64,000 nt of DNA from Acidobacteriota bacterium (GTDB lineage: Bacteria > Acidobacteriota > Terriglobia > Bryobacterales > Bryobacteraceae): positions 1-64,000 of the forward strand of contig JACQZR010000254.1 in assembly GCA_016213775.1 (NCBI GenBank), given 5' to 3'. Shown piece after piece: positions 47,589-63,573 of this stretch (the stretch's first letter is position 1; the number at the start of each line of letters is the position of its first letter). The position numbers and the translations under genes are program-made. Below the pieces are notes generated by a model, which was not told the origin of the DNA, did no database searches, and saw only the letters and a list, made by a program, of their open reading frames with translations.

Positions 47589-47618
47589 TTGACCAGATCC
47601 GCGTCGCCCACTTATTCT
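47589..47618 (+). promoter_or_regulatory. Candidate promoter of the cellulose operon
   Basis: TTGACC (47589-47594) and TATTCT (47613-47618; or TTATTC at 47612) are separated by 17-18 bp, 29-30 nt before the bcsQ ATG. No c-di-GMP riboswitch was seen in the leader. Confidence 0.5.
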
Positions 47619-47646
47619 GATCAAAGATAACAATCTGGGAAACTAT

Positions 47647-48627
47647 ATGGCTGACGACCTGGGACACGTGTGCTCGAAATTTGGGATTGACCGTGCGATG
47701 TACCGGTCGTTTCCCCTCACACTGCAAGGGCAGCCCGCACATACACCTCAATCCCGCACGCCGGAGACTCCGGCTGTACCCAAATATCCGTTCACCGGAG
47801 CGGCACATTCTTCCGGCCGAAGTTCACCTGTTGTCGAACAGCCACTCCACTCAACGGAGAATAACCAGACCCGGTCATCGGTGTTAGGTACATTGTTGGC
47901 GACCGGCGAGAATCTCAGACGAACGGAAATCACAACACCGCGAACGATTAGCGTGATCGGCGCGGCTGGCGGAGTTGGGGCCACCACGATCGCTGCCAGC
48001 TTGGCCCGTCTGGCATCGCGGCGGGGCCGCCGGGTCCTGCTCTTAGATCATGCCGCCGAGAGTTTTCTCCCCCTGTATCTGGCCGGCGCCCGGAGTTTGA
48101 TGTCCTACTCGGGCTGCTGGTCCTTCCTCCCGCATTCCGACTCGCGGCAGGCGGTAATTTCAGTAATTGCCTGCGGCGGAGCGGACGATGCCAATGAGAG
48201 ATGCCCGTGGCAGCGCGCGCGCGGACTGTCGGGCATGGCTGATGAGATTATCATCGATGCCGCTTCTCATTGTCTAAGTGAAAGCCTGATCACCTCGATT
48301 CACGACACAGCCTGCCTTTTCATCTTAGTTCCGGATATGCGATGCGCACTCCAGGTTCGCAATATTGAGAAGAAATTCTCAGAGAATCCAACCGGGTGCT
48401 TGCCAGTCTACTTAATAAACAACTTTGATCCGACAATTCCGCTCCATCACGAAGTGCAAAATTCGATAGCAGCCTTTGTGGGTAGGCGGCTCATACCCTT
48501 TACCATCCGTTGTTCGCAGGAAATCCCGCAAGCACTGGCCCAAGGTCTCACTGTCGTGGACTATGCGCCGGACAGCGATGCAGCTCATGACTTAGCGCGT
48601 ATTCCTGACTGGTTTCAGCAGATGTAG
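47647..48627 (+). CDS. bcsQ: BcsQ-like ParA-family protein with a deviant P-loop
   Basis: A 326-residue protein. Residues 1-95 are a poorly conserved, Pro/Ser-rich leader; from about 98 it has a ParA/MinD-like fold starting SVIGAAGGVGATTIAASLA. The Walker A lysine (GKT) is replaced (GGVGATT), as it also is in E. coli BcsQ/YhjQ (GGVGTTT), which supports the BcsQ assignment. BcsQ positions or activates the cellulose synthase at the cell pole and inner membrane. It is the first gene of the operon, 54 nt before bcsAB. Confidence 0.78.
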   Translation: MADDLGHVCSKFGIDRAMYRSFPLTLQGQPAHTPQSRTPETPAVPKYPFTGAAHSSGRSSPVVEQPLHSTENNQTRSSVLGTLLATGENLRRTEITTPRTISVIGAAGGVGATTIAASLARLASRRGRRVLLLDHAAESFLPLYLAGARSLMSYSGCWSFLPHSDSRQAVISVIACGGADDANERCPWQRARGLSGMADEIIIDAASHCLSESLITSIHDTACLFILVPDMRCALQVRNIEKKFSENPTGCLPVYLINNFDPTIPLHHEVQNSIAAFVGRRLIPFTIRCSQEIPQALAQGLTVVDYAPDSDAAHDLARIPDWFQQM

Positions 48628-48681
48628 GGCAAGGGAATAATTACAGTAAACAGCCACGTTCGCGCCAGTAGGAGCAGGTTC

Positions 48682-51600
48682 ATGTATCAGGAGCAGATTG
48701 CAGAAGGGTTGAATGGTGCCTCTGCACGTCCGACACCCACACGTCCAAGATTACCCGGTGTTCGCATCGCTTGCGCCTTCGCTATGGTGCTCGCCCTCGC
48801 GATGATGGCGACCGTACCCCTCGATTGGAAGGATCAGGCTGTTCTCGGAGGATCGCTCTTCGCCATTGCCATTTTCATCGACCGCCGATTTAGCGGCGAA
48901 CGGGCCTCTCTGATCCTCATGGTGATCTCGCTATTCTGCGCCGGGCGTTACTTCTGGTGGCGCATCTCAGAAACCACACACTACTTCATCGCCAACGGCT
49001 CGCAAACTCCCGCGATCGACATTTTTTTCGTCGTGCTGCTGATCGGCGCGGAAGCCTATGCGGTCGTTATCCTGGTCCTCGGCTATTTCCAAAATGCCAG
49101 GCCGCTGCGCCGCCTGCCGATGCCCCTTCCGAGTGACCCGGAACTTTGGCCGGGCGTCGACGTTCTTATCCCCACTTACAACGAGCCCATTGAAGTGGTC
49201 CGGGCCACGATGCTCGCGGCCATGAACATTGATTGGCCGCGCGACCGGCTGAATGTCTATGTGCTCGACGATGGCAAGCGCGTCGAGGTTCATCGACTTG
49301 CTCAGGAGGCGGGATGCGGATACATAGCGCGACTCGACAATGTCGGCGCCAAGGCAGGCAACATCAACCATGCGCTCGGAAAAACGCACGGCGAATACGT
49401 TGCTGTGTTCGATTCCGATCACATCCCCACGCGCTCCTTCCTGCAATTCACCATGGGTTGGTTCCTCAAGGACGTGCGTCTTGCGATGGTTCAAACGCCG
49501 CACCACTTCTACTCCCCCGATCCCTTCGAGAGAAACCTCGGCACGTTTCGCAAGGTTCCGAACGAAGGTGAACTCTTTTATGGCACGCTCCAGGACGGCA
49601 ACGATTTCTGGAACGCTCTGATCTTCTGCGGCTCGTGCGCAGTGCTGCGGCGAAGCGCCTTGGACGAGGTCGGCGGCATCGCCACCGAAACCGTCACGGA
49701 AGATTCGCACACGTCATTACGGCTACTTCGCGCTGGATGGAACACTGCCTATATCAACATCCCGCAGGCCGCGGGACTGGCTACCGCGAATGTGTCCGAC
49801 CATATCGGACAGCGCATTCGCTGGGCCCGCGGGATGGTCCAGATTCTCCGCACGGAAAACCCGCTGTTCGGTCGTGGACTTACCTGGCCGCAGCGCCTCT
49901 GCTACCTCAACGGCACCATTCACTTTCTCCACGCCACGCCGCGCCTGATCTTCTTAACCGCGCCATTGGTGTATCTGCTGCTTGGCCGATCGAACGTGTA
50001 CGGCTACTCGTGGGCCATTCTGTCGTACGTGCTTCCGCACATGTTGATGGCGACGCTCACGAATTCGAGAGCCCATGGGAGGTTCCGTCATTCGTTCTGG
50101 AATGAGATTTACGAGACTCTCCTCGCGCCGTACATTCTGGCTCCAACGCTACTCGCTCTGATCAATCCGCGCTGGGGCAAGTTCAACGTCACCTCGAAGC
50201 GAACGGTTGTCACGAAGAAATACTTCGACCTCCGCATAGCCGCGCCCTTTCTTGTTCTCATGGCTCTGAATATCGCGGGCCTGGTCACGGCAGTCACTCA
50301 AGTGCTTTCCCGGATTGACGACAACGGAACCGTCCTCGTCAATATGACCTGGGCCCTTTTCAACACGTTGATTGTTGGCGCTACACTCGCTGTGCCATGG
50401 GAGTTGCGCCAGCTTCGCTCGGCAACGCGAATCCAGCTTCGCATGCGCGTCCGCTTGCGAAAACGCAGCGGCGTGGAAGTACCGGGATCCACTCTGAACA
50501 TCTCGAACGGCGGCGCAGCCCTTCAACTGGACATGCCCGCGGACCTCAGTCCCGACGATAGCGCTGAACTGATCGTCAACCTCGGCGAGGATGAATACGT
50601 ACTGCCCGTCACGGTACGCCGCTCGCAAGGACTGCTGGTAGCACTGCACTTCGAGTTCTCGACTCTGGCAGAACACGAGGCGCTCACCAGAATCGTGTTC
50701 GGCAGAGCCGATGCGTGGCTCAGTTGGACCGCGGGCCGCCAGGAGGACCGTCTGATCCGCAGTTTCGGCCGCGTCGCAGCGACGTCGCTTCGCGGAATTG
50801 CTCTGATCCCGAAAGGACTGTTCTCCGGTCCGGAGAGCAGCAGCCTCCCCGCAGCGGCGCATGAAACGAAAAGTGCTGCCGCCAATGCCGGCGCGGCCCA
50901 GTCCGCCGGTGTCAGAAACGCAGTAACCGCTTTGCTCGCCTGCGCACTGCTTGGCGGTTCCTTACGGGCGGATGAACCGTTTGCCGAATCGCGTGACTGG
51001 CTCGAACTGGGGCAGCGCCGCGCGATCACGTTTCAGTCCGGTGAAGGGCGAGTGAACCTGACCTTCACGATGCCGATGACGAAACTCGTCACCAACGCGG
51101 CACTCGTTCTTAATTACAAAAGCTCCGGCGGTTTTCCCGATAGCGCGGTCCTCAACATTTTGCTCAACGGTGTCGCTCTCACGCCGGTTCCCGCGCGTCA
51201 GAAGGGCGGCGATGCGAATACGCTTCAGAAAGCGGAAGTCACGTTGCCCCCGGACCTGGTAGTGAGTGACAACACGATTACCCTGCATTTCTCCGGATCG
51301 TGTCCGGGCGGCTGCAAAGAGGGTGGACGATGGCTGCAAATCGACCCCACGACGCAAGTCCGGCTATCCGGAACCATGCTTCCGCTGCCGAACAACCTGC
51401 GCGCACTGCCGGCGCCTTTCGTCGACACCTCGCTGCACCGCCTCGCGCGCATCACCATGGTGTTCGCCGAAAAGCCGACGAATGAAACACTCCAGGCCGC
51501 CGGCGTCGTCGCCTCGTGGTTTGGCGTCATTGCCGACGATCGCGGCACCCAGTTCGCCGTGCGAGCAGGCGGTGTTCGCAAGGGCGACGAAATCGTGTTC

Positions 51601-53034
51601 GCCACCCGTGATTCCGAAGTCATTCGCTCGCTCGGGCTGAAAGACATTGAGGGCCCACAGATCGCCATGCGGACCAATCCGCTCGATCCATTCGGCAAAC
51701 TACTGGTCATCACAGGGCGTAATGGCGCGGACCTCCTGCTCGCGGCACAAGCCCTGGCGACGCAGAGTTACGCTAAGGACGGTGATCGCGCCGAACTGGG
51801 GAACGCGCGGCTTCCGCGCCCATCTTCTCCCTACGATGCTCCCCGCTGGTTGAATCCACAGCGCGCCAATGGCCTGGGAGATTCCATCAGTCCCGAACAG
51901 TTGCGGTGGTTTGGAGCGGGGGCAGTCAACCTTTACTTCCGCCTGCCGCCCGACCTTGCATTCGGGCAGCGCTCGACTGTTCCTCTACGCCTGGGCTTTC
52001 GCACTGCAGCCACCTCCGAACAGAAAGGGGAGCTGCGCGTTTCGCTGAACGGGATCCGGGTCAGTTCCACCCGCATCTCAATCCGCGAAGGCACTTCTGT
52101 CCAACACCAGGCCGTCTATCTCCCGGTTCAAGTCCTCTACCCAAGCAATACACTGACTCTCGAATTCGTGCTCAACAGCATCAAGGATAGCCCGACGGAC
52201 CGTTATCCGGAAATCACCGTTCTTCCTAATTCATCGATTGATCTCCATGATATCCCACGGTTTGTCGAGCTACCGCGCCTGGATTTGTTTACGCAGGCAG
52301 GATTCCCTTTCACCAGGCTGGCCGATCTTTCAGGCACCGCTGTCCTGCTTCCTGATGAGCCGACGCCGGATGAGATTGCCTGCTATCTCGGCCTAATGGG
52401 GCGATTCGGTGCGCAAACGGGGTATCCAGGCCTGCGAGTCACGGTCGTTGCCGCCAGTCAGTCGCAGCAGGCGGCGAGCAAGGATCTGCTTATTATCGGG
52501 ACGGCGCGCGACCAGCCGCTGTTTGCCCGATGGTCGGACATGCTTCCCGTGCGCGTCGAGAGTCAGTTCCGCGCCCGCAAACCATCGGGCTGGCGCACCA
52601 TGGTGGACCTTCCGTTTGCTCCGATCGCGCGCGAATTCCGCAGGCTGAGCGAAACGCTTTTTGAAGGCGCCTCGCCTGAAGGTTTGCTCCAGGGCCTGAT
52701 CTCGCCGCTGGACAGCAGCCGCAATGCCGTGGTTCTCGCCACGGGTGAGCAGAGCAGCTTCGAATACCTGATGCAGACGCTTGGCAACGCCACATCGAAA
52801 GACATTCACGGAAGCGTCAGCTTACTTACCAACAGTCGATTCCAATCGTTCGAGTTATCGGAAAAGAGCAACTATATCGGCGAACTAAGTTGGCTCGAAA
52901 CGTTCTATACATGGATTGGACGTAATTTCTATTTGATCATTCTAGCGGTAATTGGTTGCGCCCTTCCATTGACTCGGTGGTTCTCAAAATGGGCTGATCA
53001 ACATGCGGCGTGGAGGCTCCAAGGAAGCCGGTGA
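48682..53034 (+). CDS. bcsA: Fused cellulose synthase, BcsA catalytic subunit plus BcsB
   Basis: A 1450-residue fusion. BcsA part: family 2 glycosyltransferase motifs DDG (D196/D197), DSD (D244-D246), TED (339-341) and QRIRW (377-381), membrane helices on both sides, and a C-terminal PilZ domain with RSATR (579-583) and NISNGG (606-611), the c-di-GMP-binding residues. From about 750 a new signal-like helix (LLACALLGGSLRA) starts a BcsB part, with carbohydrate-binding jelly-roll and flavodoxin-like regions and a membrane anchor near 1410-1440 (FYLIILAVIGCALPLTRWF). It polymerises UDP-glucose and threads cellulose through the inner membrane. The fusion resembles AcsAB of Komagataeibacter. Confidence 0.95.
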   Translation: MYQEQIAEGLNGASARPTPTRPRLPGVRIACAFAMVLALAMMATVPLDWKDQAVLGGSLFAIAIFIDRRFSGERASLILMVISLFCAGRYFWWRISETTHYFIANGSQTPAIDIFFVVLLIGAEAYAVVILVLGYFQNARPLRRLPMPLPSDPELWPGVDVLIPTYNEPIEVVRATMLAAMNIDWPRDRLNVYVLDDGKRVEVHRLAQEAGCGYIARLDNVGAKAGNINHALGKTHGEYVAVFDSDHIPTRSFLQFTMGWFLKDVRLAMVQTPHHFYSPDPFERNLGTFRKVPNEGELFYGTLQDGNDFWNALIFCGSCAVLRRSALDEVGGIATETVTEDSHTSLRLLRAGWNTAYINIPQAAGLATANVSDHIGQRIRWARGMVQILRTENPLFGRGLTWPQRLCYLNGTIHFLHATPRLIFLTAPLVYLLLGRSNVYGYSWAILSYVLPHMLMATLTNSRAHGRFRHSFWNEIYETLLAPYILAPTLLALINPRWGKFNVTSKRTVVTKKYFDLRIAAPFLVLMALNIAGLVTAVTQVLSRIDDNGTVLVNMTWALFNTLIVGATLAVPWELRQLRSATRIQLRMRVRLRKRSGVEVPGSTLNISNGGAALQLDMPADLSPDDSAELIVNLGEDEYVLPVTVRRSQGLLVALHFEFSTLAEHEALTRIVFGRADAWLSWTAGRQEDRLIRSFGRVAATSLRGIALIPKGLFSGPESSSLPAAAHETKSAAANAGAAQSAGVRNAVTALLACALLGGSLRADEPFAESRDWLELGQRRAITFQSGEGRVNLTFTMPMTKLVTNAALVLNYKSSGGFPDSAVLNILLNGVALTPVPARQKGGDANTLQKAEVTLPPDLVVSDNTITLHFSGSCPGGCKEGGRWLQIDPTTQVRLSGTMLPLPNNLRALPAPFVDTSLHRLARITMVFAEKPTNETLQAAGVVASWFGVIADDRGTQFAVRAGGVRKGDEIVFATRDSEVIRSLGLKDIEGPQIAMRTNPLDPFGKLLVITGRNGADLLLAAQALATQSYAKDGDRAELGNARLPRPSSPYDAPRWLNPQRANGLGDSISPEQLRWFGAGAVNLYFRLPPDLAFGQRSTVPLRLGFRTAATSEQKGELRVSLNGIRVSSTRISIREGTSVQHQAVYLPVQVLYPSNTLTLEFVLNSIKDSPTDRYPEITVLPNSSIDLHDIPRFVELPRLDLFTQAGFPFTRLADLSGTAVLLPDEPTPDEIACYLGLMGRFGAQTGYPGLRVTVVAASQSQQAASKDLLIIGTARDQPLFARWSDMLPVRVESQFRARKPSGWRTMVDLPFAPIAREFRRLSETLFEGASPEGLLQGLISPLDSSRNAVVLATGEQSSFEYLMQTLGNATSKDIHGSVSLLTNSRFQSFELSEKSNYIGELSWLETFYTWIGRNFYLIILAVIGCALPLTRWFSKWADQHAAWRLQGSR

Positions 53035-54193
53035 AGTGTTGACGATTTACCAAACAGTGATCCGCTGGGACTGGTCACTGAGGATGGTTATGATGGCTGC
53101 GATCGCTGCTCTCCAACTCGGCGCAACCGAGAGCTGGGATCTCTGGGAGAGGTATGCCACGCGGTTTATGAGCGGCGGCGGGCGAGTCATCGATCCGGGC
53201 ATCAGGAACGGGACGACATCAGAGGGGCAAGCCTACGCGATGTTCTTCGCCCTCGTGGCCAACGACCGCAAGCGTTTCGCGCAACTACTGGACTGGACGG
53301 AAAAGAACCTCGCAGGTGGAGATCTGGGGTCACATCTCCCTTCATGGAGCTGGGGGGAATCGGCGGGCGGACGGTGGGGCGTTCTGGACGACAACTCGGC
53401 TTCCGATGCCGATCTGTGGATGGCCTACTCCCTTCTCGAAGCCGGGAGGCACTGGAACGAGGCGCGTTTCTCCGCTCTTGGACGGCGGCTGGCCGGCCGG
53501 ATCGCGAGTTCCGAAGTGGAGCACCTGCCGCATCTCGGGACCGTGCTCCTCCCCGGGTATCGTGATTTCAAAACCGGTGATCGGATTTTCTTCAACGTCA
53601 GTTACCTGCCTGTCCAGGTGTTGAGCGGGATCGCGGCGCATTGTCCCACCGGCCCGTGGAGAAATCTTGCCGGAAATGTGCCGCGACTCGTGAAGGCGAG
53701 TTCTCCGCGAGCGCTCGCCCTGGACTGGTCATGTTACCGGAGTGGGCCAGGATTCGTCATCGAAGCGCCTGACGGAAAAAAAGCCGTCGCCAGCTACGAT
53801 GCGATCCGCGTCTATCTCTGGGCGGGAATGCTTCCGAAGGAAGTTCCTGTCCAAGCGGAACTGTTGCGTTCACTTTCCGGAATGGCCCGGATCGTGGCAC
53901 ACCGGAGCATACCGCCGGCGATTGTGGATTCCGATGGTGTTATCCGGAACGAACACAGCAGTATTGGATTTTCCGCTGCGTTGATCCCTTTCTTCGCCGC
54001 CAGGGGAGAAGATCATCTCGCGGCACGGCAGCAACATCGAGTAAACGCGGCCTTTAATCGCGCCACGGGCCTCTATGGCGCCACGCCCGCTTACTACGAC
54101 CACAACTTGATCCTGTTCTCGAACGGCTGGTTGGAAAAAAGGTACCGGTTTGATTCGGATGGCGGTCTGAGGATACGAAGGAATACAGAATGA
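53003..54193 (+). CDS. bcsZ: Periplasmic endo-beta-1,4-glucanase of the cellulose operon (GH8)
   Basis: About 396 residues from ATG 53003, overlapping bcsAB by 32 nt; GTG 53036, 9 nt after AAGGAAG and right past the bcsAB stop, may be the true start. A signal-anchor (MVMMAAIAALQLGATES) precedes a GH8 domain: catalytic E74 in TTSEGQAYAM and the Asp in NSASDADLWM (D135/D137), with the usual NVSYLPVQVL and DWSCY later. BcsZ trims nascent cellulose in the periplasm and affects its crystallinity and export. The stop overlaps the bcsC start by 4 nt. Confidence 0.93.
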   Translation: MRRGGSKEAGEVLTIYQTVIRWDWSLRMVMMAAIAALQLGATESWDLWERYATRFMSGGGRVIDPGIRNGTTSEGQAYAMFFALVANDRKRFAQLLDWTEKNLAGGDLGSHLPSWSWGESAGGRWGVLDDNSASDADLWMAYSLLEAGRHWNEARFSALGRRLAGRIASSEVEHLPHLGTVLLPGYRDFKTGDRIFFNVSYLPVQVLSGIAAHCPTGPWRNLAGNVPRLVKASSPRALALDWSCYRSGPGFVIEAPDGKKAVASYDAIRVYLWAGMLPKEVPVQAELLRSLSGMARIVAHRSIPPAIVDSDGVIRNEHSSIGFSAALIPFFAARGEDHLAARQQHRVNAAFNRATGLYGATPAYYDHNLILFSNGWLEKRYRFDSDGGLRIRRNTE

Positions 54194-57100
54194 GGGATGA
54201 CATGAGTAGAATCGTTGTTCGTAGTTTGTTGGTACTCGCCCTGAGCACTGTTCTTGCAGTCGCGCAAAACGCCAGTGAAGCACTGGTCAGCAAAGCTCGC
54301 GCGCTCGAAGGCCGGGGCCGCCCCGACCTGGCGGCACAAACCTGGCAGCAGGTCCTGCTGGCCGATCCGAGCCACCAGGAAGGCCTCGCCTCATTGGCCC
54401 GCTTCGCCAAACAAAGCGGACGCACGCAGGAAAGCCAGGCATATCTGGACCGCCTCCGCAAAGTGAATCCGAATCATCCCGCGCTGCAACAGGTGCAGGC
54501 AATGCCTGTGCTTGTGCAGCAACAGGCCCGCCTCAGGGAAGCCGCGCGACTGGTCGCCAATCAGCAGTTCGATCAGGCGATGCAGATCTACCGCCAGGTA
54601 TTCGGCGATGCCCCCCCGCCGGGCGCCATGGCCATTGCCTATTACGAAACCGAAGCGGCTGTCCCCGGCGGCTGGGAAAGCGCCACGGCGGGCCTCCAGA
54701 AATTCATGAACCTATATCCTGCCGTCGACGATTACAAGCTTGTTCTCGGCAAGTTGTGGACTTATCGCCCAGCCACTCGCGTTGCCGGCATGCGCTTGCT
54801 GGAATCCATTAAGGGCGGGGAAGATCAATTGAACAAAGCGAAGCAGGCTTGGCGCCAGGCGCTGATTTGGGAAGCAGGAAACCCGCAGGTCCTCGCTTCT
54901 GCCCGCGCCTATACGAGCCGTTATCCCGACCCTGAACTGAGCAAGATGTTTGAAGGGGTGAATGCTGCGCAGCACACTTCTGCCCCTTCGGGCCCTGTCC
55001 GCAGCACGCTGGACAATCTCGGCTACAACGAATTGAAGGCGAACAGAGTCAAGGACGCCGAAACGCTTTTTGAAAACAGCTTGAAGCAGAATCCCAAAAA
55101 CGCAGATGCACTCGCCGGTCTTGGTTTCGTTCGCATGAAACAGGAGAATTTCTCCGAGGCAGCTACGTTGTTTGAAGCCGCGGCAAAAGAATCGCCCAAG
55201 GACAAAGATATTGCCGGCGCTCTGGAAACAGCCCGCTTCTGGTCAGCCATGAATGACGCATCGAAAGCATTCGCGGCCGATCAGTTGCAAGAGGCCGTTG
55301 AGTTTTATCGCAAAGCTCTCGCAGTCCGTCCCTCCAATCCCGAAGGTTTGCACGGACTCGGGGGAGCTTTGATGAAAAAGGGGGACGCCACCGCTGCCGC
55401 GACGGTATTTGAGAAACTCACCGGGCAACAGCCGCAAAACGAAGAGGCGTGGTTTGGACTGCTGAATGCCCGCTACCGCGGTGTGGGACCGGATTCCGCG
55501 CTGGCTGCCATCCCGCAGCTTCCGGGGACAGTCCGGCTCGGCCTGTCGAAGAACATCCAGTATCTGGCGATGATGTCTTTCGCTTCCAGCGACGCGGGCA
55601 AGCAGGAGGATTCCAGGCGCTATTTGCATCAGGCCATCGAACTCTCCAACGCCAAGGGGCTTGTGCTCTCAATCCCGCTCCAGCTTCAGTTCGCCGGTCT
55701 CTATTTGCGGCACGGATACGCCTCGGAAGCAGCGACTCTGTTCCAGAAGGTTGTCGATAGCGAACCGCGCAATGTGGACGCCTGGGAAGGTCTGCTCACG
55801 TCGCTCATCCAGACTCACCAGCAAGGCCGCGCGGCCAGATCGCTCGAACATATGCCGTCGAAAGTGTACGAAGCCGCGGTGACGCGTCCCGGGGCGCTGC
55901 GTTCACTGGCGGCGATTTCCGAGTCGATGGGACAGCTAGAGGATGCGGAAAAGTACCTCGAGAAGTCGATTCGCATCGACACGAAAGTCGACGACGCCTC
56001 CAACATCGCGGCTCGCCTTCAGCTCGCGCATCTGTGGCTCGCCCAACGCCGCGATCAGCAGGCTGAAACTCTGCTCCGCGGAATCACCGCGTCACATCCC
56101 GATAATCCCGACGTCTGGAAAGCGCTGATAGCCGCGCTGCACAAGCAAAGCCGCGACGAGGTTGCCATTGCTGAGGCGGGCCGCCTGCCGCGCTCAGTGT
56201 CCGCCGCACTGGTGGATGATCCGGACTACGTCGGCCTCATGGCATCTGTGCTCAATGCGGTGGGGCGGTACGACGAAGCGCTCCGCCTGGTTCGCCGCGC
56301 GTCCGCCCTGATGAAGCAGCAGAACCGCACGATTCCCGCCGATCTCGAAATTCAGCTTGGCTGGCTGCTGTTGAGCACCAATGGCGACGAACGCGAACTG
56401 TACGCCCTCTTCACGGGTGTCGGTGCCCGTACCGATCTTACGCAGGTTCAACAAGAGAGTGTGTCTGAGCTTTGGTCGAGTTGGATCTTGCGCCGCGCCA
56501 ACGCCGCATCCAAGTCCGGTGATACGGCGCGCGCACTCGCCATTCTCGAAGCCGGTGTCAAACTGCTGCCCCGCGACGCGGCGATTCGCTCCAGTTATGC
56601 GGGTGTCCTTCTCACGGCGGGTGAAGCCGTGAAGGCGCTCAGTGTCTATAAATCGTGGGGCCTCACTGGGGCCGGATCAGCCGATTTCACCGGAGCCATT
56701 GGAGCCGCGCTCGGCGCAAGCGATTGGAACCTCGCCACCACCTGGCTTCGCACGGCGTTAAACCGCTGGCCCACCAATGCAGAGATGCTAAACCTCGCCG
56801 GCAAGCTCTCGGCAGCGAAGGGTGATTACAAAGCCGCGCAGAAATACTGGACTGCGGCGCTGGCGGCTACCCCCGTTCCAGCGGAAGTGCCACAAGTGCG
56901 CGCCATGACCGCGTTGAAGCCCGTTGATAACCGGCCCGCCAATGAGGTGATTGGGGAGCTGCTTCTCGGTGGAACAGCGCCTCTCCAAGCGCAGCCGCCG
57001 GCTCAAATGCCCGCGCCTGTTATTCCGCGATCGAACGGCCTCCCCTCACCTGTTATTCCCGATAAGGGCGCAACGGCACCGCGTGCGTTCGTACAGCCGG

Positions 57101-58527
57101 AGATCAAGTCCGCTCCCCAAGATCAGCGAATCATTACCGCAGTGAAGCGCGATTGGCAGAGCACGGCTGCTCCCGTTCGTCAGGAATCGCGGCTCACAGC
57201 GGAATTGATCCCCGCCGCGACCTCTTTACCCAGGCCCGGCGTCCCCGGGCTTAGCGACGTTCCCCCGCAGCCCCGAGCTTCGCTCCCCCAGGTCGCCTCC
57301 CGCGAACCCGTGCCTGTGCTCCCCGCCATCGCACCTGGTTATGTCGAACCCGTCCAGCCGTCTGAGGGAACTTCGCTTCGCGGCGAGATCCAGGAACGTC
57401 TCAACGCCATTGAGTCCCGCAACTCGTCCTACTTTGGATCCGGCGGCACTATTCGCGCCAGAAGCGGGGAGCAAGGTTTCGATCGAATGATCCTCGAAGA
57501 GGCAAACTTCGAGGCAAGCGCCGTCATCGCCGGCGGCCTCCGCCTCACCGCTGTCGCTCATCCCACCTATCTCGAGTCCGGCAAGCCCGACGGCGAGAGT
57601 GACAAACGGTTCGGCCTTGCCCCCAAAGGCGCTCTCTTTGATACACAATCGACCAGCGGCGTCGGCGGTGAACTCCAACTCTCAACTCGCACTTTCGGGC
57701 TCCGTGCCGGTTCGACGCCACGGAACTTCCTCGTTAGCAACTTCGTCGGCGGCATCCGCTTCCGTCCGGGGAATGGACCGATCACGCTGCTTGCGGAACG
57801 CGAAGTTTTGCGCGATTCGATGCTCGCCTTCTCCGGAGCCCGTGACCCCGTCACCAACCGCGTTTGGGGCGGTGTCGTTGCCAACACGCTCTCCATCCTC
57901 GGCAACTGGGGCGGCGAGAAATCGGGCTTCTACACGAGCTTCGGATTCCAAACCATCAGTGGACGCCAGGTGCAGTCCAATACTCGCATCGATGGAAACC
58001 TCGGCATGTATTGGAAAGTCCTGGAGACACCGCAAGGCAAGTTGACCGCCGGCTTCAATCTCACGGGCCTCCACTATGAGAAGAACCTTCGTTACTTCAC
58101 TCTGGGGCACGGCGGATACTTCAGCCCGCAGCAGTATATCCTCGCCAACGTGCCGATTCAATGGCGCGGCGTTTACGGGCAGAAAATTCAATACCTGTTG
58201 AACGGCAGCTTCGGCGCACAGCACTTCCAGGAAGAATCTTCTCCTTACTTCCCGACACTGCCCGCCGTCCAGGGCCGCAATGGCCCGTACTACGCCAAAC
58301 AGTCATCCTCCGGCGCCAACTACAGCATTGATATCCAGACAGCCATTCCGATTACCCCGGTCTGGCATCTCGGTATTTTCGCCAATGTGAACAATACGCG
58401 AAATTACAATTCGGCTGCCGCCGGCGTGTTCATCCGTTACAGCATCCGGCAGCGTCCCCTATTACAGAATTTCTCCATCCCGTCAATTCCGGATTGGCGT
58501 GGATCAGAGCCGTTCCGGGTTTATTAG
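54190..58527 (+). CDS. bcsC: BcsC-like TPR and outer-membrane porin for cellulose export
   Basis: A 1445-residue protein with a signal peptide (VVRSLLVLALSTVLAVAQ), about 15-20 TPR units over residues 30-900 (LAAQTWQQVLLADPSHQEG, AVEFYRKALAVRPSNPEG), a Pro-rich linker (about 930-1050) and a C-terminal BcsC beta-barrel (about 1060-1445) ending in aromatic residues near FRVY. The TPR solenoid spans the periplasm and binds cellulose or BcsZ; the barrel is the exit pore. The ATG at 54190 is inside the bcsZ stop; ATG 54202 is an alternative. Length is within the BcsC range. Confidence 0.92.
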   Translation: MRDDMSRIVVRSLLVLALSTVLAVAQNASEALVSKARALEGRGRPDLAAQTWQQVLLADPSHQEGLASLARFAKQSGRTQESQAYLDRLRKVNPNHPALQQVQAMPVLVQQQARLREAARLVANQQFDQAMQIYRQVFGDAPPPGAMAIAYYETEAAVPGGWESATAGLQKFMNLYPAVDDYKLVLGKLWTYRPATRVAGMRLLESIKGGEDQLNKAKQAWRQALIWEAGNPQVLASARAYTSRYPDPELSKMFEGVNAAQHTSAPSGPVRSTLDNLGYNELKANRVKDAETLFENSLKQNPKNADALAGLGFVRMKQENFSEAATLFEAAAKESPKDKDIAGALETARFWSAMNDASKAFAADQLQEAVEFYRKALAVRPSNPEGLHGLGGALMKKGDATAAATVFEKLTGQQPQNEEAWFGLLNARYRGVGPDSALAAIPQLPGTVRLGLSKNIQYLAMMSFASSDAGKQEDSRRYLHQAIELSNAKGLVLSIPLQLQFAGLYLRHGYASEAATLFQKVVDSEPRNVDAWEGLLTSLIQTHQQGRAARSLEHMPSKVYEAAVTRPGALRSLAAISESMGQLEDAEKYLEKSIRIDTKVDDASNIAARLQLAHLWLAQRRDQQAETLLRGITASHPDNPDVWKALIAALHKQSRDEVAIAEAGRLPRSVSAALVDDPDYVGLMASVLNAVGRYDEALRLVRRASALMKQQNRTIPADLEIQLGWLLLSTNGDERELYALFTGVGARTDLTQVQQESVSELWSSWILRRANAASKSGDTARALAILEAGVKLLPRDAAIRSSYAGVLLTAGEAVKALSVYKSWGLTGAGSADFTGAIGAALGASDWNLATTWLRTALNRWPTNAEMLNLAGKLSAAKGDYKAAQKYWTAALAATPVPAEVPQVRAMTALKPVDNRPANEVIGELLLGGTAPLQAQPPAQMPAPVIPRSNGLPSPVIPDKGATAPRAFVQPEIKSAPQDQRIITAVKRDWQSTAAPVRQESRLTAELIPAATSLPRPGVPGLSDVPPQPRASLPQVASREPVPVLPAIAPGYVEPVQPSEGTSLRGEIQERLNAIESRNSSYFGSGGTIRARSGEQGFDRMILEEANFEASAVIAGGLRLTAVAHPTYLESGKPDGESDKRFGLAPKGALFDTQSTSGVGGELQLSTRTFGLRAGSTPRNFLVSNFVGGIRFRPGNGPITLLAEREVLRDSMLAFSGARDPVTNRVWGGVVANTLSILGNWGGEKSGFYTSFGFQTISGRQVQSNTRIDGNLGMYWKVLETPQGKLTAGFNLTGLHYEKNLRYFTLGHGGYFSPQQYILANVPIQWRGVYGQKIQYLLNGSFGAQHFQEESSPYFPTLPAVQGRNGPYYAKQSSSGANYSIDIQTAIPITPVWHLGIFANVNNTRNYNSAAAGVFIRYSIRQRPLLQNFSIPSIPDWRGSEPFRVY

Positions 58528-58533
58528 GTAAAG

Positions 58534-58554
58534 GGAGTCAGGAGTCAGAAGTCA
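58534..58554 (+). repeat. Heptanucleotide tandem repeat before the TIGR03437-type gene
   Basis: GGAGTCA occurs at 58534 and 58541, then GAAGTCA at 58548, three 7-bp units in a row, ending 2 nt before the ATG at 58557. The first two contain GGAG and could act as ribosome sites at different distances. Short heptamer repeats of this form are known in cyanobacterial intergenic DNA. Confidence 0.65.
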
Positions 58555-58556
58555 GA

Positions 58557-60692
58557 ATGCGACAGTCTGTGGTGTTTCGCGCGCATCCATCTACGACGCT
58601 TTTTCTAACTGGCGTCCTGCTCTGTGCGCCCGTTTTCGCGCAATCTCCAATGACTTGCCGGCGCGTTGACACGCCTGCAAATGCCATCCGGGCAGAAGGG
58701 TTGGCCGAGCTGCTGAGCGATCTGGTAATCGCGTGCACGGGAGGCTCCCCTTCCCCCAAAGGAGGGAAGCTGCCACAATACCAGATTCTAGTGACGTCCA
58801 ACACTCCCCTGACCCTCAAGATCGCTCCTCCGCCGAAGCCGTCGGCCACCCCAGTCATTGACGGTCCACTCGAACCGGTTAGCTCCGTGAGTGATGCGCT
58901 GGCGATTGTCGATGATCCGCCGGCTACCGATCAGCGGCCTTGTGTGCCGGTCGCGCCCGCTGACTTCTGCTCTGCCACCGGCGCCACCGATGACGCCAAT
59001 GTCTTCCAGGGCACGCGATTACAGGACAACCTCATCCTCTTCAACAAGATTCCCATCGATGCCCCCGGCGAAGGGAGAACGCGCATCCTCCGCGTCACGA
59101 ATCTGCGCGCCTCCGCCTCGAAAATTCCGAAAAAACCGGACCCGGATCAGGTGGTCCTCACTGCACAGATCTTCGACAGCGCCGGCCGGCAGCTTTCCCT
59201 GGAGAATCCCACTCAGGTTGCCGGCGTCGCCCGGCCCGGCATCATTGCTTCTCTCCACACCAGCATCGGGGCCGAAGTTACCCCGTTATCTCCGGCGCTC
59301 ACCGCGACACCGGCCCTGCTGCCCCAGAACAATCCCGGAAGTACACAGGCTTTCCTGGTGCGTTTCACCGAGGGTTTTCCTTCCGCGTTCAAACGCCGGA
59401 ATCTCGGCACCACCGCTTCGTATCCAGGGTATGTGGTGACTCAGGCGGACCCCGGCGGACCGGCCAATACCGAGTCGGGCTTCTACAACGCCTCTTTCCC
59501 CTCAGACAAAGGCCTGGACTCCGCCGGGTTGGCTGACTCCGGCACGCGTCTGAAAGCCGTTCTCTCCCAGGTTCCCGGGAATGTGCACGTCTGGGTAAGT
59601 GCCCGTGACGTCGAGACCGGCACAACTAATTACGCCACCGCCATTCCGCGGGCACTTCTGACTTACGCGGGGGATCAAGGCAACGGACCATTCAGTCAAA
59701 ACCACCCGGCGCACGGCGATTTCGCTCTGGTCTACCCCGATAACAATTCACTAACTCTGGTGTGGGAAGTCATGGCCTCCAACTCCGAACTGCTGGAAAG
59801 CATCGCTTTTGAGATTCGCATTTTCTCGCCCAACGGCGTGGCGCAGCTTGGCACCAGTTACATCAAGATGGGGCTCGCGCCTGTAAGTTCCGGCGACACT
59901 CAGTCTCCGCACCCGAGTTTTCTCGAAAGCCCAGAAGAACCTATTCCGGGATTTCGCATTGTCTCGACTTTGAGTGCACTTCCCGTGACCGCGGTTTCAG
60001 CGGCAAGTCTATCCGGAAACTCCGTCGCGCCCGATTCGGAAGTAAGTCTGTTGGGCAAAGAGCTGTCGATTATCAGGGATAACTCCGGCGCAGCCCCTGT
60101 GACTTCGATCGGGGACGTCAAAGTCGATGTGATCGATAACGCGGGAATCCGCCGCACTGCCTCACTATTTTCGGTTTCGCCCAACAAAATCAACCTTCTT
60201 CTCAACCCCGAAACAGCGGCGGGACAGGCCGCGATCGTCGTCCGCAACGGAACTCGCGACGTTGCTACCGGAACGGTTCGGGTCAGTGCAGTGGCTCCCG
60301 GATTGTATTCCGCAGCCGGTGATGGACGGGGTTTCGCATTGGGGAAAGTGATCTCAGTCACAGAAAGCGGTACGCAGAGCGCGGATCTGGCTCGTCTCGA
60401 CCCGCTGCAAGAACAATGGCAGGCTGTACCCGTTGAACTGGTCGCGGGCGCGGCGACGTTCCTCCGGCTCTACGGAAGCGGCATTCGCGGCAGAAGCAGC
60501 CTCGACGCCGTCACCCTCCGAATCGGCAGCCAGTCCATCCCGGTCACTCTCGCAGGTCCGGAAGGCCGCCCGGGACGCGATCAGGTGGAGGCGGGTCCGC
60601 TACCTCTCACTCTGGCTGGCAAGGGCGAACTCCCTGTCACCCTCGTTGTTGATGGCAAAACCTCGAACTCGCTGACGGTATTACTGAAGTGA
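58557..60692 (+). CDS. Secreted surface protein with Solibacter-type C-terminal domain (TIGR03437-like)
   Basis: About 711 residues from ATG 58557, chosen over an upstream frame extension because a signal peptide (STTLFLTGVLLCAPVFAQ) follows. The middle contains beta-rich segments without a named family. The C-terminal ~230 residues carry the Solibacter uncharacterised C-terminal domain pattern: SVSPNKINLLLNPETAAGQ, VAPGLYSAAGDGRG, FLRLYGSGIRGRSSLDAVTL, and a close VVDGKTSNSLTVLLK. Presumably a cell-surface or extracellular protein. It starts 29 nt after bcsC and overlaps the cellulase gene, so it belongs to the cellulose operon. Confidence 0.8.
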   Translation: MRQSVVFRAHPSTTLFLTGVLLCAPVFAQSPMTCRRVDTPANAIRAEGLAELLSDLVIACTGGSPSPKGGKLPQYQILVTSNTPLTLKIAPPPKPSATPVIDGPLEPVSSVSDALAIVDDPPATDQRPCVPVAPADFCSATGATDDANVFQGTRLQDNLILFNKIPIDAPGEGRTRILRVTNLRASASKIPKKPDPDQVVLTAQIFDSAGRQLSLENPTQVAGVARPGIIASLHTSIGAEVTPLSPALTATPALLPQNNPGSTQAFLVRFTEGFPSAFKRRNLGTTASYPGYVVTQADPGGPANTESGFYNASFPSDKGLDSAGLADSGTRLKAVLSQVPGNVHVWVSARDVETGTTNYATAIPRALLTYAGDQGNGPFSQNHPAHGDFALVYPDNNSLTLVWEVMASNSELLESIAFEIRIFSPNGVAQLGTSYIKMGLAPVSSGDTQSPHPSFLESPEEPIPGFRIVSTLSALPVTAVSAASLSGNSVAPDSEVSLLGKELSIIRDNSGAAPVTSIGDVKVDVIDNAGIRRTASLFSVSPNKINLLLNPETAAGQAAIVVRNGTRDVATGTVRVSAVAPGLYSAAGDGRGFALGKVISVTESGTQSADLARLDPLQEQWQAVPVELVAGAATFLRLYGSGIRGRSSLDAVTLRIGSQSIPVTLAGPEGRPGRDQVEAGPLPLTLAGKGELPVTLVVDGKTSNSLTVLLK

Positions 60693-63565
60693 TTGCGTTA
60701 CTGATTCTCTGTGCGCCGGCATTCGCCCAGACCTCGAGCCAGTTCAATTATGCCGAGGCTCTGCAGAAATCGCTCTTTTTCTATGAAGCGCAACGATCCG
60801 GCAAGCTTCCCCGCGAAAACCGGGTAAGCTGGCGTGCCGATTCCGGCCTCAAGGATGGCGCCGATCAGAATGAAGATCTAACCGGCGGCTGGTACGATGC
60901 CGGCGATCACGTCAAATTCGGGTTTCCGATGGCCTCCTCGGCGACCTTGCTTGCCTGGAGCGCTTTCGAATACCGCGCCGGATTTCGCGACAGCCGTCAG
61001 ATGCCGCATCTTGTCTCGAATCTCCGCTGGATTGCCGATTACTTCATGAAAGCCAGCGCCACGCCAGAACAGTTGTGGGTACAGGTCGGCGATGGCAATG
61101 CCGACCATTCGTTTTGGGGCGCGGCGGAGGTCCTCCAGATGGCGCGGCCGTCGTTTAAGGTCAGCGCCTCCTGTCCCGGATCCGACGTTGCCGCCGAAAC
61201 CGCGGCCGCCCTCGCTGCCTCCTCTCTCGTCTTCCGCATGGAAGGCGAGACGTCGTACGCGCAGAAACTTGTTGATCGCGCCGAATCAATTTATTCCTTC
61301 GCCGACAGATACCGCGGCAAATACTCGGACTGTGTGACTGCCGCGCGCGCATTCTATGCTTCCAACAACGGTTTCATCGACGAACTGGCATGGGGAGCAG
61401 CGTGGCTCTTCCGTGCCACCAACAATCCGGACTATCTTGCCAAAGCAGTTAAATACTACGAGCAGCTTCCACTGGAACCCGGAACACAGGTGAGATCATT
61501 TAGCTGGACCCACAACTGGGACGATAAGAGCTACGGGACCTACGTCCTGCTGACTCTGCTCACCGACTCGCAGGATTACCGTCCGGATATCGAGCGCTGG
61601 CTGGACTACTGGACCACGGGCTATCAGGGCCGGCGGATTCGCTACACGCCCGGCGGACTCGGCTGGCTCGATCAGTGGGGTTCCCTCCGCTACGCCGCCA
61701 ATACCGCATTGCTCGCCATGCTTTACTCCGATTGGCTGCGCCTGAAGAACCTCGATTCCGAGCGCGCGAATCGCTACCGCTCGTTTGCCGAACGTCAGAT
61801 CAACTATATGCTTGGGGATAACCCGCGCAGCGCCAGCTACGTGATCGGTTTCGGCAAGCAGCCGCCACGCAATCCGCATCACCGCACGGCGCACGGCTCC
61901 TGGGCTGACGATATCAATGTTCCCAAGGATTCCGTACATACACTGTACGGCGCGCTCGTTGGGGGGCCCGACGCATCCGACAGCTACACCGACTCCCGTA
62001 CCGACTACGTGAAGAACGAAGTTGCTACCGATTACAACGCTGCCTTCACCGGCGCCCTGGCCGCGATGTATCAGCGCTATGGCGGTACGCCCCTAGTTGA
62101 TTTTCCTCCGGTCGAAACACCCACGCGCGATGAACTCTTCGTCGAAGCCTCCGTGAATTCGCGCGGCTCAAATTACATTGAAATCGCCGCTTATGCCGGG
62201 AACCAGACAGCTTGGCCCGCTCGCGTCATCGACAATGTGACGCTCCGCTACTTCTTCGATCTCCCCTCCGGCGACCCGGGCGACATCTCTCTGTCGACCG
62301 CGTTCAACCAGTGCTCCCAGCCGGCGCCTCCTCAACTCTGGACCGGACCGACATACTACATCGAGATCAGTTGCGGTTCGATATTTCCCGGCGGCCAGCA
62401 AGCCTATCGCAAACTGACACAGTTCCGGCTCACCAGCCGCAGTTCTCGCTCGCCGGACAGTGATTGGTCCTTTGCCGGGCTTACGTTTCCGGCCAACGGA
62501 CTCGTGCGCACGCGCAACATAACTCTCTATGAAAATCAGCGGCTCGTCTGGGGTCAGGAGCCGCCGGGTGGTGTCCCGCAACCGCTTCGGTTCCTATCGC
62601 CAACCGACCTGCCTGGGGCCGCTGTGGGCGAGCGCTATCAACTGGGGTTGTTGGCTTCCGGTGGAACGCTGCCCTATACGAACTGGGAGGTCACGAATAA
62701 ATCCCTGCCCGACGGCTTGACGCTCGATGCGGCTACGGGCCTGGTCGCCGGCATCCCCAGATCCTCAGGAACTTTCAGCTTTTCTATCCGCGTCACTGAC
62801 AGCACGCGGACGACGGCGGAGAAGCAGTTCAATCTCACGGTCGTCCCGCCCGGGCCGCTAACCATCTCGACACGCTCTCTGCGTCCCGCCTACATCGGCG
62901 CTTTCTACTCTGCTGATCTCGATGCGAGTGGCGGTATTCGGCCTTACCGATGGGCTGTCGTCGCCGGCGCCCTGCCCGAGGGGTTTTCCCTGTCAGGCAA
63001 CACCATCACCGGGACCAGCCAGACCGCGGGAGATTTCGAGTTCACCATCGAACTCACTGACTCCGGCGGGTCATCTTCACAGCGGGCGTTCGTTCTATCG
63101 GTCACTGTGCCCGACGCGACCCAGGGACTCAAGATTCTATACCGCACTGGTTTCACCGATGCCACAACCAATCAGTCGGGAGTGCAGTTCAAGATCGTCA
63201 ACCTGGGAACAACTCCCGTTCCGCTCGCCGAACTGAAGGTGCGCTACTACTTCAGCCTGCCGAATGCGAAATCGTTTAACCTATGGTGTGATTACTCCAC
63301 GATCGGATGTGCCGGCATCGCCGGGCGGTTTGTAGATACCGGAGGCGGCAGTTATTACCTCGAATTGACCTTCAGCAGCGAGAACGCCGTTGCGCCCGGT
63401 GGGGACGGCGGCGAAGTCCAGTTGCGATTCGCGCAGGATGACTGGTCCAGTTTTGACCAGAGCGATGACTACTCGTTCGACGCCTCTAAACGAACTTACA
63501 CTGAGTGGGACCATATGACGATTTACCGCAATGGCCTTCCTGTCTGGGGGGTCCCACCCGCGTAA
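60689..63565 (+). CDS. Secreted GH9 cellulase with carbohydrate-binding and Ig-like domains
   Basis: A 958-residue enzyme from a GTG overlapping the previous stop. After a signal peptide (LLILCAPAFAQ), a GH9 domain runs to about 470: DAGD (D70, D73) holds the base and its partner, the His in NPHHRTAHGS is conserved, and E444 in KNEVATDYN is the acid. A CBM3-like module follows (about 480-630), then two Ig-like repeats (ASGGTLPYTNWEVTNKSLPD; ASGGIRPYRWAVVAGALPEG) and a second CBM3-like module (about 820-958). It hydrolyses beta-1,4-glucan outside the cell. Its place in the cellulose synthesis operon is unusual. Confidence 0.94.
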   Translation: MIALLILCAPAFAQTSSQFNYAEALQKSLFFYEAQRSGKLPRENRVSWRADSGLKDGADQNEDLTGGWYDAGDHVKFGFPMASSATLLAWSAFEYRAGFRDSRQMPHLVSNLRWIADYFMKASATPEQLWVQVGDGNADHSFWGAAEVLQMARPSFKVSASCPGSDVAAETAAALAASSLVFRMEGETSYAQKLVDRAESIYSFADRYRGKYSDCVTAARAFYASNNGFIDELAWGAAWLFRATNNPDYLAKAVKYYEQLPLEPGTQVRSFSWTHNWDDKSYGTYVLLTLLTDSQDYRPDIERWLDYWTTGYQGRRIRYTPGGLGWLDQWGSLRYAANTALLAMLYSDWLRLKNLDSERANRYRSFAERQINYMLGDNPRSASYVIGFGKQPPRNPHHRTAHGSWADDINVPKDSVHTLYGALVGGPDASDSYTDSRTDYVKNEVATDYNAAFTGALAAMYQRYGGTPLVDFPPVETPTRDELFVEASVNSRGSNYIEIAAYAGNQTAWPARVIDNVTLRYFFDLPSGDPGDISLSTAFNQCSQPAPPQLWTGPTYYIEISCGSIFPGGQQAYRKLTQFRLTSRSSRSPDSDWSFAGLTFPANGLVRTRNITLYENQRLVWGQEPPGGVPQPLRFLSPTDLPGAAVGERYQLGLLASGGTLPYTNWEVTNKSLPDGLTLDAATGLVAGIPRSSGTFSFSIRVTDSTRTTAEKQFNLTVVPPGPLTISTRSLRPAYIGAFYSADLDASGGIRPYRWAVVAGALPEGFSLSGNTITGTSQTAGDFEFTIELTDSGGSSSQRAFVLSVTVPDATQGLKILYRTGFTDATTNQSGVQFKIVNLGTTPVPLAELKVRYYFSLPNAKSFNLWCDYSTIGCAGIAGRFVDTGGGSYYLELTFSSENAVAPGGDGGEVQLRFAQDDWSSFDQSDDYSFDASKRTYTEWDHMTIYRNGLPVWGVPPA

Positions 63566-63573
63566 TTTCCCGT

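Follow-up and report, generated by a model that had tools for sequence, protein, structure and literature searches.

The need of cellulose-making machines for a cellulase is an old question that has been studied with the GH8 enzyme BcsZ and with plant GH9 enzymes. The locus described here raises it anew, as a single operon unites a GH8 enzyme, a GH9 enzyme of the crystalline-cellulose type and an Ig-like protein: does it make cellulose and also edit what it has made? The window, i.e. the whole stretch of 64,000 nucleotides that was analysed, had been read in the initial annotation as carrying a bcs operon coupled to a GH9 enzyme with binding modules via a TIGR03437 protein. The contig runs past the window edge, on to position 73054. 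Genomes used for comparison are given as G-numbers, G000 being the genome of the window.

Table 1. Features of the cellulose synthase locus and its 3' neighbour
Feature	Position	Strand	Evidence
Promoter-like site TTGACC-18-TATTCT	47589..47618	+	9/12 consensus match, 28 nt 5' of bcsQ; weak
bcsQ, MinD/ParA-like ATPase of the Bcs system	47647..48627	+	CBP_BcsQ (Pfam) 48.7 bits, cut-off 21.3
Fused bcsAB	48682..53034	+	catalytic part with PilZ, residues 29-707; BcsB, residues 775-1352
bcsZ, GH8 endoglucanase	53003..54193	+	NF008305 435.5 bits, cut-off 299
bcsC, TPR and outer-membrane barrel	54190..58527	+	BCSC_C E 2.6e-85, TPRs
TIGR03437 protein	58557..60692	+	Sec-type leader (by eye), two N-terminal Ig-like sandwiches, TIGR03437 part
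N-terminal two Ig-like sandwiches	about 58647-59966	+	
TIGR03437 part	59994-60680	+	read as two IPT-like folds
GH9 cellulase, processive-endoglucanase type	60689..63565	+	GH9, CBM3c, two He_PIG, CBM3
GH9 catalytic domain	60749-62059	+	GH9 profile E 1e-150
CBM3c of GH9 enzyme	about 62114-62563	+	CBM_3 match
Two He_PIG spacers of GH9 enzyme	about 62603-63103	+	He_PIG matches
Terminal CBM3 of GH9 enzyme	about 63125-63559	+	CBM_3 match
GH5 cellulase with two CBM2, 3' end (one CBM2)	63574..64000, on to contig 65562	-	CBM_2 E 4.4e-32

All six genes of the operon, bcsQ, fused bcsAB, bcsZ, bcsC, the TIGR03437 gene and the GH9 gene, are located on the plus strand (Table 1). Gaps of 54 nt and 29 nt were found at the bcsQ/bcsAB and bcsC/TIGR03437 junctions, and overlaps of 32 nt at bcsAB/bcsZ, 4 nt at bcsZ/bcsC and 4 nt (GTGA) at TIGR03437/GH9. 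The tight packing described in the initial annotation (overlaps, or gaps no wider than 54 nt) was thereby confirmed, the overlaps now being measured at 4-32 nt. An alternative TTG start of the TIGR03437 gene at 58494 would overlap bcsC. The arrangement is more than chance, given its recurrence elsewhere. Family matches for all six proteins, together with orthologs in other genomes, ruled out an ORF-calling artefact.

Transcription signals were scanned between 47000 and 64000, and the site at 47589 was the only promoter-like site on the plus strand. Terminator-like sites on this strand fell within bcsQ, bcsC and the GH9 gene; the scan showed none at the bcsC/58557 junction, where a terminator had been named as speaking against the coupling, or at the 60692/60689 junction. 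Since the counts of terminator-like and promoter-like sites were both below those of shuffled sequences (3 vs 4.6, 8 vs 15.0), the scan is weak evidence either way. An Rfam search of 45000-64000 gave no match.

Judged by family membership, the locus is a cellulose synthase operon of the Bcs kind in which BcsA and BcsB are fused. The BcsA part scored 813.9 bits with the CelA/BcsA profile (cut-off 699.1) and 41 bits with PilZ (cut-off 22.5), and was aligned to solved BcsA (7lby, E 2.5e-211) with the motifs TED and QRIRW identical; the BcsB part matched at E 1e-141, and no other BcsB match was found in the genome. In BcsZ, the E of TTSEGQ and the D of YDAIR, presumably the catalytic residues of GH8 BcsZ, align with solved GH8 enzymes and are kept in all nine operon BcsZ proteins. 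BcsQ reached 98.7 bits with the NCBIfam equivalog TIGR03371, below the cut-off of 157.85, its Pfam score (Table 1) being above the Pfam cut-off, and BcsC reached 287 bits with BCSC_C (cut-off 23.5) and 276.8 bits with the longer NCBIfam equivalog (cut-off 858). From the family roles of BcsAB, its product would be cellulose and its activity dependent on c-di-GMP.

The GH9-CBM3c unit was aligned in one piece (residues 18-625) to T. fusca E4 (1js4; E 7e-233). A scaffoldin CBM3 was matched by the terminal CBM3 (E 2e-31). In its domain order (GH9-CBM3c-spacers-CBM3) the enzyme is of the Cel9A/Cel9I type, and it would act processively on crystalline cellulose. The enzyme has DAGD at residue 70 and EVATDYN at residue 444; DAGD and the Glu, which we take to be the catalytic residues of GH9, are identical in the 1js4 alignment and intact in all four operon GH9s. 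The leader of the window's enzyme (MIALLILCAPAFAQ) has no basic start, unlike the leaders of its relatives. Of the 237 family genomes, 5 yielded an enzyme of this type when the best three candidates were scored per genome, and in a phylum sample of 396 with the best two scored, the own genome alone did; copies beyond these could be missed. Four of the five in the family are located directly 3' of a TIGR03437 gene, at bcs loci. A general abundance of GH9 as the cause of its presence near bcs was ruled out, the other GH9s of relatives being distant types (E 2e-92 or weaker vs about 1e-150 for those of the operons). Three of the other GH9 loci were inspected, L002 (window's genome), L005 (G026) and L237 (G323), and no bcs gene was present within 1.5 kb on each side.

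A third cellulase gene at the locus, coding for a GH5 enzyme and located mostly past the window edge, is convergent to the GH9 gene at a distance of 8 nt. Its closest solved relative is A. cellulolyticus E1 (E 1.8e-157). The GH5-CBM2 gene adjoins the operon in three of the four genomes with the GH9 order.

The TIGR03437 profile scored about 77.3 bits in the window protein (curated cut-off 29.05) and matched five of six orthologs, the window protein counted, at E <=0.01. Four Ig-like sandwiches are predicted from the AlphaFold model (pLDDT 82), and the N-terminal part gave weak fold matches when compared with antigen I/II-type surface adhesins and their tandem C-terminal Ig-like domains: SpaP (Z 8.8, rmsd 6.2, 271 residues) and PrgB (Z 8.5, rmsd 4.5, 260 residues). 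The protein had no match to PDB sequences at E 1, Pfam found none on six orthologs at E 0.1, and a BFVD fold search gave nothing convincing; a search of the open-access literature for TIGR03437 returned no paper. Because 56 of the 61 genomes searched, the own included, have a match to some part of the protein, the domain alone says nothing on cellulose. Numerous relatives share the N-terminal part and carry another C-terminal part. Among 77 named loci, the nine closest relatives (E 8e-92 or better) all adjoin bcsC, eight being placed by adjacency and L161 by a BCSC_C match on its contig; the next match is much weaker (E 2e-51), and the other 68 show no bcsAB in the flank examined. Distances between the TIGR03437 proteins track those between BcsAB proteins (r 0.90, permutation p 0.0085, 7 taxa). 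By these comparisons the protein forms a distinct orthologous group, found beside bcsC alone and co-diverging with BcsAB.

BCSC_C was detected in 16 of 237 family genomes, and 14 were kept after the weak matches in G485 (3e-8) and G532 (6e-6) had been dropped. The TIGR03437 protein directly follows bcsC in eight of these 14 (own included) and is absent there in six; it also follows bcsC in G044, of a neighbouring family. GH9 comes next in G000, G001, G386 and G506, with the 4-nt overlap in G000 and G386, and does not follow in five of the nine operons with the TIGR03437 protein (G026, G044, G411, G468 and G466, the call in G466 being limited by a contig that stops 395 nt after the TIGR03437 gene). 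The order, whose absence from every relative the initial annotation had named as evidence against itself, is thus shared, and an order private to the window's genome was ruled out by this recurrence. The coupling of bcs genes with GH9 via the TIGR03437 protein is supported by the shared order, by the 4-nt overlaps and by the co-divergence with BcsAB. Joining of contigs was inferred for G468, in which bcsC is split over two, and for G506, in which one contig carries bcsC and the start of the TIGR03437 gene and another the end of this gene and GH9. In a second screen, 61 of 399 genomes matched; 11 weak matches were dropped, and 44 strong genomes belonged to family f11. Of this family 37 loci were read, 36 of them with a next gene and one ending right after bcsC, and neither the TIGR03437 protein nor this GH9 was found in the stretches read.

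The cellulase content of the operons varies. The window has both GH8 and GH9; G001, with displaced bcsZ, has GH9 in the operon and GH8 neither there nor in the genome (GH8 absence was checked in seven genomes, a set outside which G466 and G468 lie). G411, G466 and G468, all of one genus, have no bcsZ at the operon position and no GH9 match in the genome, a result limited by the completeness of G466 (75%) and G468 (83%); a cellulase in the operon is therefore not always needed. The TIGR03437 protein is kept in all four of these bcsZ-less operons. The state of bcsZ was left out for G436 and G499, whose contigs start there.

Families f1 and f3 contributed 13 operons to a BcsAB tree, and f11 another 13, G436 and G499 having no bcsAB on their contigs. 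G001 was placed apart from G000, G386 and G506, with 98/98 support for its group, and G000 BcsAB is nearer to those of G386 and G506, which belong to other genera, than to the one in its congener G001. The first 640 residues of the G001 GH9 are 62.8-65.3% identical to the GH9s of the three other operons, and G001 BcsAB is 46.6-47.7% identical to theirs. The GH9 tree does not separate two joinings from one old joining with losses.

These results can also be read without remodelling of self-made cellulose. It is possible, though less likely than not, that the GH9 and GH5 enzymes forage on plant cellulose, with the cell's own cellulose matrix retaining the CBM enzymes near the cell and the released sugar serving as food. 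Their closest solved relatives, E4 of T. fusca for GH9 and E1 of A. cellulolyticus for GH5, are cellulases that degrade plant cellulose; the GH5 gene is convergent to the operon and outside its transcript in G000 and G386, and the G001 GH9 was seemingly gained apart from the synthase, as its identity values exceed those of BcsAB. On the other hand, the 4-nt overlaps tie GH9 to the bcs strand in G000 and G386, so that GH9 synthesis would go with cellulose making and not with cellulose finding, and four of the five family enzymes of this type are found at bcs loci.

An arrangement without function is less probable. That GH9 arrived behind bcs by horizontal transfer and merely hitch-hikes is suggested by its patchy distribution and by the closeness of G000 BcsAB to other genera; as the same GH9 type apparently joined twice at the same spot (G001 vs G000/G386/G506) and all operon copies have intact catalytic motifs, this is very improbable. 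The TIGR03437 protein, for its part, is unlikely to be an ordinary secreted member of a large family, placed by descent and having no role in cellulose formation. The widespread part-matches, the many relatives with another C-terminal part and its absence from six of 14 family operons are consistent with such a member, but not the distinct orthologous group beside bcsC or its retention in operons without bcsZ.

The reading of the known Bcs system as extended at its 3' end in some Bryobacterales by an exported, lineage-specific matrix or surface protein and by enzymes editing self-made cellulose is given about an even chance. Operon packing, the recurrent order, co-divergence with BcsAB, GH9 without GH8 in G001 and the adjoining GH5-CBM2 gene speak for it; the patchy occurrence of GH9, operons with neither bcsZ nor GH9, the six family operons without the TIGR03437 protein, the wide spread of its domain, the weak fold matches, the atypical GH9 leader and the plant-cellulose role of such GH9 and GH5 types elsewhere speak against it. 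By their family roles, BcsAB would make the chain under c-di-GMP control, BcsQ would help to position the complex, BcsZ would trim in the periplasm and BcsC would export the cellulose. The TIGR03437 protein would be exported by Sec and serve in the matrix or at the surface, its four Ig-like sandwiches forming a rod that keeps emerging cellulose, or enzymes on cellulose, at the cell. The GH9 enzyme, probably also located outside the cell, would bind crystalline cellulose via its last CBM3, and its GH9-CBM3c unit would cut processively and thereby edit or release self-made cellulose, together with the adjacent GH5-CBM2 enzyme. Binding partners and substrate are inferred, with self-made cellulose, remodelled or recycled, as the presumed main GH9 target. 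This soil bacterium may thus both produce a cellulose coat and trim it. A further-reaching version appears doubtful, in which a Bryobacterales cellulose secretion system has gained the TIGR03437 protein as a new, exported subunit docking cellulose and enzymes at the surface, and GH9 is a part of synthesis that can replace GH8 BcsZ (as in G001) as an independent bacterial counterpart of KORRIGAN. Comparing natural variants without operon GH8 (G001), GH9 (G026, G044) or both (G411) allows these roles to be told apart. In the TIGR03437 protein, a phylum of importance in soil offers a candidate for a new accessory factor of cellulose secretion.

No report of GH9 in a bacterial bcs operon was found in the open-access literature, judged on titles and the starts of abstracts. 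KORRIGAN is a membrane-bound plant enzyme without CBM3, and Cel9A/E4 and Cel9I belong to plant-cellulose degradation. Unlike the genes of the latter two, the GH9 gene of the window ends a cellulose synthesis operon, and its product has He_PIG spacers where T. fusca E4 has FN3. As in the window's enzyme, GH9 is followed by CBM3c and a further cellulose-binding module in Cel9A/E4 of T. fusca (1js4) and in Cel9I of C. thermocellum (PMC4579020).

The acidobacterial bcs locus is described in passages of PMC9693552 as bcsQ-bcsAB-bcsZ-bcsC, with fused bcsAB and a GH8 bcsZ between bcsAB and bcsC as in the window; the words GH9, TIGR03437 and CBM are absent from its main text. According to the same passages, Acidisarcina polymorpha has a GH5_1 cellulase in place of bcsZ, paralleling the G001 operon with GH9 and without bcsZ and the GH5 gene adjoining the window's operon. 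The major operon of Komagataeibacter hansenii, in passages of PMC10106347, carries cmcAx, ccpAx and bglxA, with CmcAx described as extracellular. It resembles the window's operon in having accessory glycosidases beyond the synthase and differs in their kind, one being a carboxymethyl cellulase and the other a beta-glucosidase (the main text mentions none of GH9, CBM3 and TIGR03437). The statement of the initial annotation that BcsZ alone is the usual cellulase of such operons therefore holds as a fair contrast but is not absolute, given bglxA in Komagataeibacter and GH5 for bcsZ in an acidobacterium. In the clostridial ccsZABHI operon, CcsZ is a GH5_25, non-GH8 endoglucanase; this system differs in being Gram-positive with most subunits unrelated to Bcs (passages of PMC7710045, whose main text lacks the word GH9). 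A gene list in part of PMC7074687 includes bcsC, with GH93 and not GH9. By analogy alone, the plant enzyme KORRIGAN, a GH9 within the plant cellulose synthase complex (passages of PMC5407803), is like the window's enzyme in being a GH9 endoglucanase tied to cellulose synthesis.

The coordinates of the bcs operon and of the gene that faces it are compiled in the table. From bcsQ to the GH9 gene, the successive junctions comprise a 54-nt gap, a 32-nt overlap, a 4-nt overlap, a 29-nt gap and a 4-nt overlap, in agreement with the tight same-strand spacing described in the initial annotation. The bcsC/58557 and 60692/60689 junctions had been named in the initial annotation for a check of co-transcription; nothing terminator-like was found at either, in a weak scan that detected fewer sites than in shuffled sequence. 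Terminator-like sites on the + strand were located within the bcsQ, bcsC and GH9 genes. A promoter-like site at 47589, the previously assigned left edge, was not above chance expectation.

Genes of the bcs operon and the convergent GH5 gene
Gene	Position	Strand	Assignment
bcsQ	47647-48627	+	passes Pfam cut-off, below stricter NCBIfam equivalog cut-off
bcsAB (fused)	48682-53034	+	clear family match
bcsZ	53003-54193	+	clear family match
bcsC	54190-58527	+	clear family match
TIGR03437 protein gene	58557-60692	+	clear family match (TIGR03437)
GH9 cellulase gene	60689-63565	+	clear family match
GH5 cellulase gene, two CBM2	stop end at 63574, continuing beyond the window	-	domain matches

BCSC_C matches were obtained in 16 of the 237 genomes of the family (own genome included) and were strong in 14. 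An ortholog of the TIGR03437 protein is encoded directly 3' of bcsC in eight of the 14 (the window's own genome G000, G001, G026, G386, G411, G466, G468 and G506) and likewise in G044 of a neighbouring family; this part of the claimed gene order recurs in relatives. The protein is absent from this position in six (G323, G434, G435 and G436 of one genus, G496 and G499), and it was not found in the examined stretch of 37 loci of f11, another family (37 of the 44 strong f11 loci covered). In a scan of named genomes, its nine nearest relatives (E <=8e-92) all adjoin bcsC, as read directly for eight and from a BCSC_C match on the contig for locus L161. The tenth drops to E 2e-51, and bcsAB was not seen in the examined flank of any of the other 68 relatives. 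The records JAFLBB010000011.1, JAEUQF010000180.1 (Bryobacterales MAG-244) and JAIQFJ010000128.1 presumably correspond to G386, G001 and G506. Across seven taxa, among them G506 with its fragment, distances between TIGR03437 proteins track those between BcsAB proteins (r 0.90, permutation p 0.0085). In the BcsAB tree, the operons of G323, G434, G435 and G496, which lack the protein, form one clade (100/100) that sits among operons containing it with weak support (81/76). The distribution fits a long-standing component of the operon in Bryobacterales that was lost once, or an early gain.

Other arrangements were seen downstream of bcsC. The genus to which G411 and G468 belong (L084 13194-15835, L153 2753-5394) has, after the TIGR03437 gene, a 581-aa ORF, identified as DUF885 in L084, the one scanned, and then a 299-aa ORF. 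Many f11 loci (e.g. L087 11290-15359) contain one or two ORFs of ~670 aa after bcsC; both were scanned in L087 and are DUF3857/transglutaminase-like, possibly another companion of cellulose secretion. The f11 genome G420 has a second BcsC-like frame downstream of its bcs operon (L103 14600-17635). The tail of a bcsC gene is present on a 3169-base contig filed as a Phycisphaerae MAG (L165, JAFGJQ010000018.1), together with a TIGR03437 ortholog that is mostly complete but truncated where the contig stops; either mis-binning or inter-phylum transfer would account for this.

No sequence match to the TIGR03437 protein was found in Pfam or PDB. Its AlphaFold model is nearly all-beta (overall pLDDT 82, N-terminal part 86). 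The N-terminal part is modelled as two sandwiches with adhesin Ig-like domains as top fold matches (SpaP, Z 8.8, rmsd 6.2, 271 residues; PrgB, Z 8.5, rmsd 4.5, 260 residues), a likeness that may reflect simply a common arrangement. The TIGR03437 part resembles IPT domains of plexin (Z 8.8, rmsd 2.3, 82 residues) and EBF1 (Z 8.0, rmsd 2.3, 83 residues), and a portion of a mixed-linkage-glucan binding protein from Bacteroides (Z 7.6, rmsd 5.5, 153 residues). Four cysteine columns are conserved in the N-terminal part, which suggests disulphides and hence export. Very large relatives of this part are found at L178, L191, L192 and L204, in tandem with large proteins weakly matching the GH9 query; those scanned in L192 and L178 contain He_PIG, in L192 also TIG and BACON, and no GH9 domain. 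This is a different surface-protein locus.

The GH9 gene directly follows the TIGR03437 gene in four genomes, with 4-nt overlaps in G000 and G386 and spacings of 11 nt in G506, where it was read from a second contig beginning within the TIGR03437 gene, and 178 nt in G001. With few best candidates scored per genome, GH9 of this type was detected in 5/237 family genomes, the fifth being G500 (short contig, no bcs gene seen on it), and in a phylum sample in the own genome only (1/396). On the BcsAB tree G000, G386 and G506 form one clade (100/100) and G001 stands apart (98/98), and its GH9 is 62.8-65.3% identical to the other three (first 640 residues) and its BcsAB only 46.6-47.7%; GH9 therefore probably joined the operon at least twice, or was transferred. 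The GH9 tree did not resolve the placement of G001. Unlike its counterparts in G386, G506 and G001, the leader of the window GH9, read from a GTG start (60689-60730, MIALLILCAPAFAQ), begins without a basic residue; the true start or the export efficiency is uncertain.

Where bcsZ is present in the operons, the catalytic residues of its product are retained (9/9 BcsZ proteins). In G001 (98% complete), bcsAB and bcsC are 16 nt apart and no GH8 was found genome-wide; in G411 the two genes overlap by 4 nt and neither GH8 nor GH9 was found. Thus, no cellulase other than GH9 was seen in the G001 operon, and G411 shows that a bcs operon can exist without either enzyme. The G411 congeners G466 and G468 likewise have no bcsZ between bcsAB and bcsC and no GH9 match. 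A further GH8 loss from the usual place was observed in G139 of f11 (L092 1214-11037), where bcsAB overlaps bcsC.

The contig extends past the window, to 73054, and the GH5 and GH9 stops are 8 nt apart. The convergent pair is found in G000 and G386, with GH5 proteins 71% identical. In G506, a GH5 gene encoding one CBM2 and fn3 lies on the same strand 231 nt past GH9; G001 has a gene other than GH5-CBM2 at this place, and its GH9 itself has an extra C-terminal CBM2. Among solved structures, the GH5 enzyme of the own genome is closest to endocellulase E1 of A. cellulolyticus (E 1.8e-157). P0006, the window GH9, aligns over residues 18-625 with T. fusca E4 (GH9 + CBM3c, E 7e-233) with identical DAGD and NEVATDYN motifs, and its last CBM3 matches a scaffoldin CBM3 (E 2e-31). 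The nature of these relatives and the convergent orientation of GH5 speak for plant-cellulose foraging from a self-made cellulose matrix; this use of the enzymes is considered less likely than the account that follows, and the gene overlaps joining GH9 to the bcs strand argue against it. Most likely, some Bryobacterales possess an ordinary Bcs machine with an added exported Ig-like rod and, subsequently, crystalline-cellulose-active enzymes. The rod, encoded beside the outer-membrane channel gene, would have been added first and might hold cellulose or enzymes at the cell surface; GH9, added later, could edit or release cellulose.

Accessory glycosidases of bcs loci are already known, BcsZ among them; others are BglxA in Komagataeibacter (PMC10106347), the GH5 enzyme CcsZ in Clostridioides (PMC7710045) and a GH5_1 replacing bcsZ in Acidisarcina (PMC9693552), and GH9 endoglucanases take part in plant cellulose synthesis (PMC5407803). 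The open-access papers searched yielded no report of a bacterial bcs operon that contains a GH9 with CBM3, nor of this bcsC-linked TIGR03437 protein. The module set of the window GH9 is the same as that of C. thermocellum Cel9I (GH9-CBM3c-CBM3b), the activity of which depends on CBM3c (PMC4579020).
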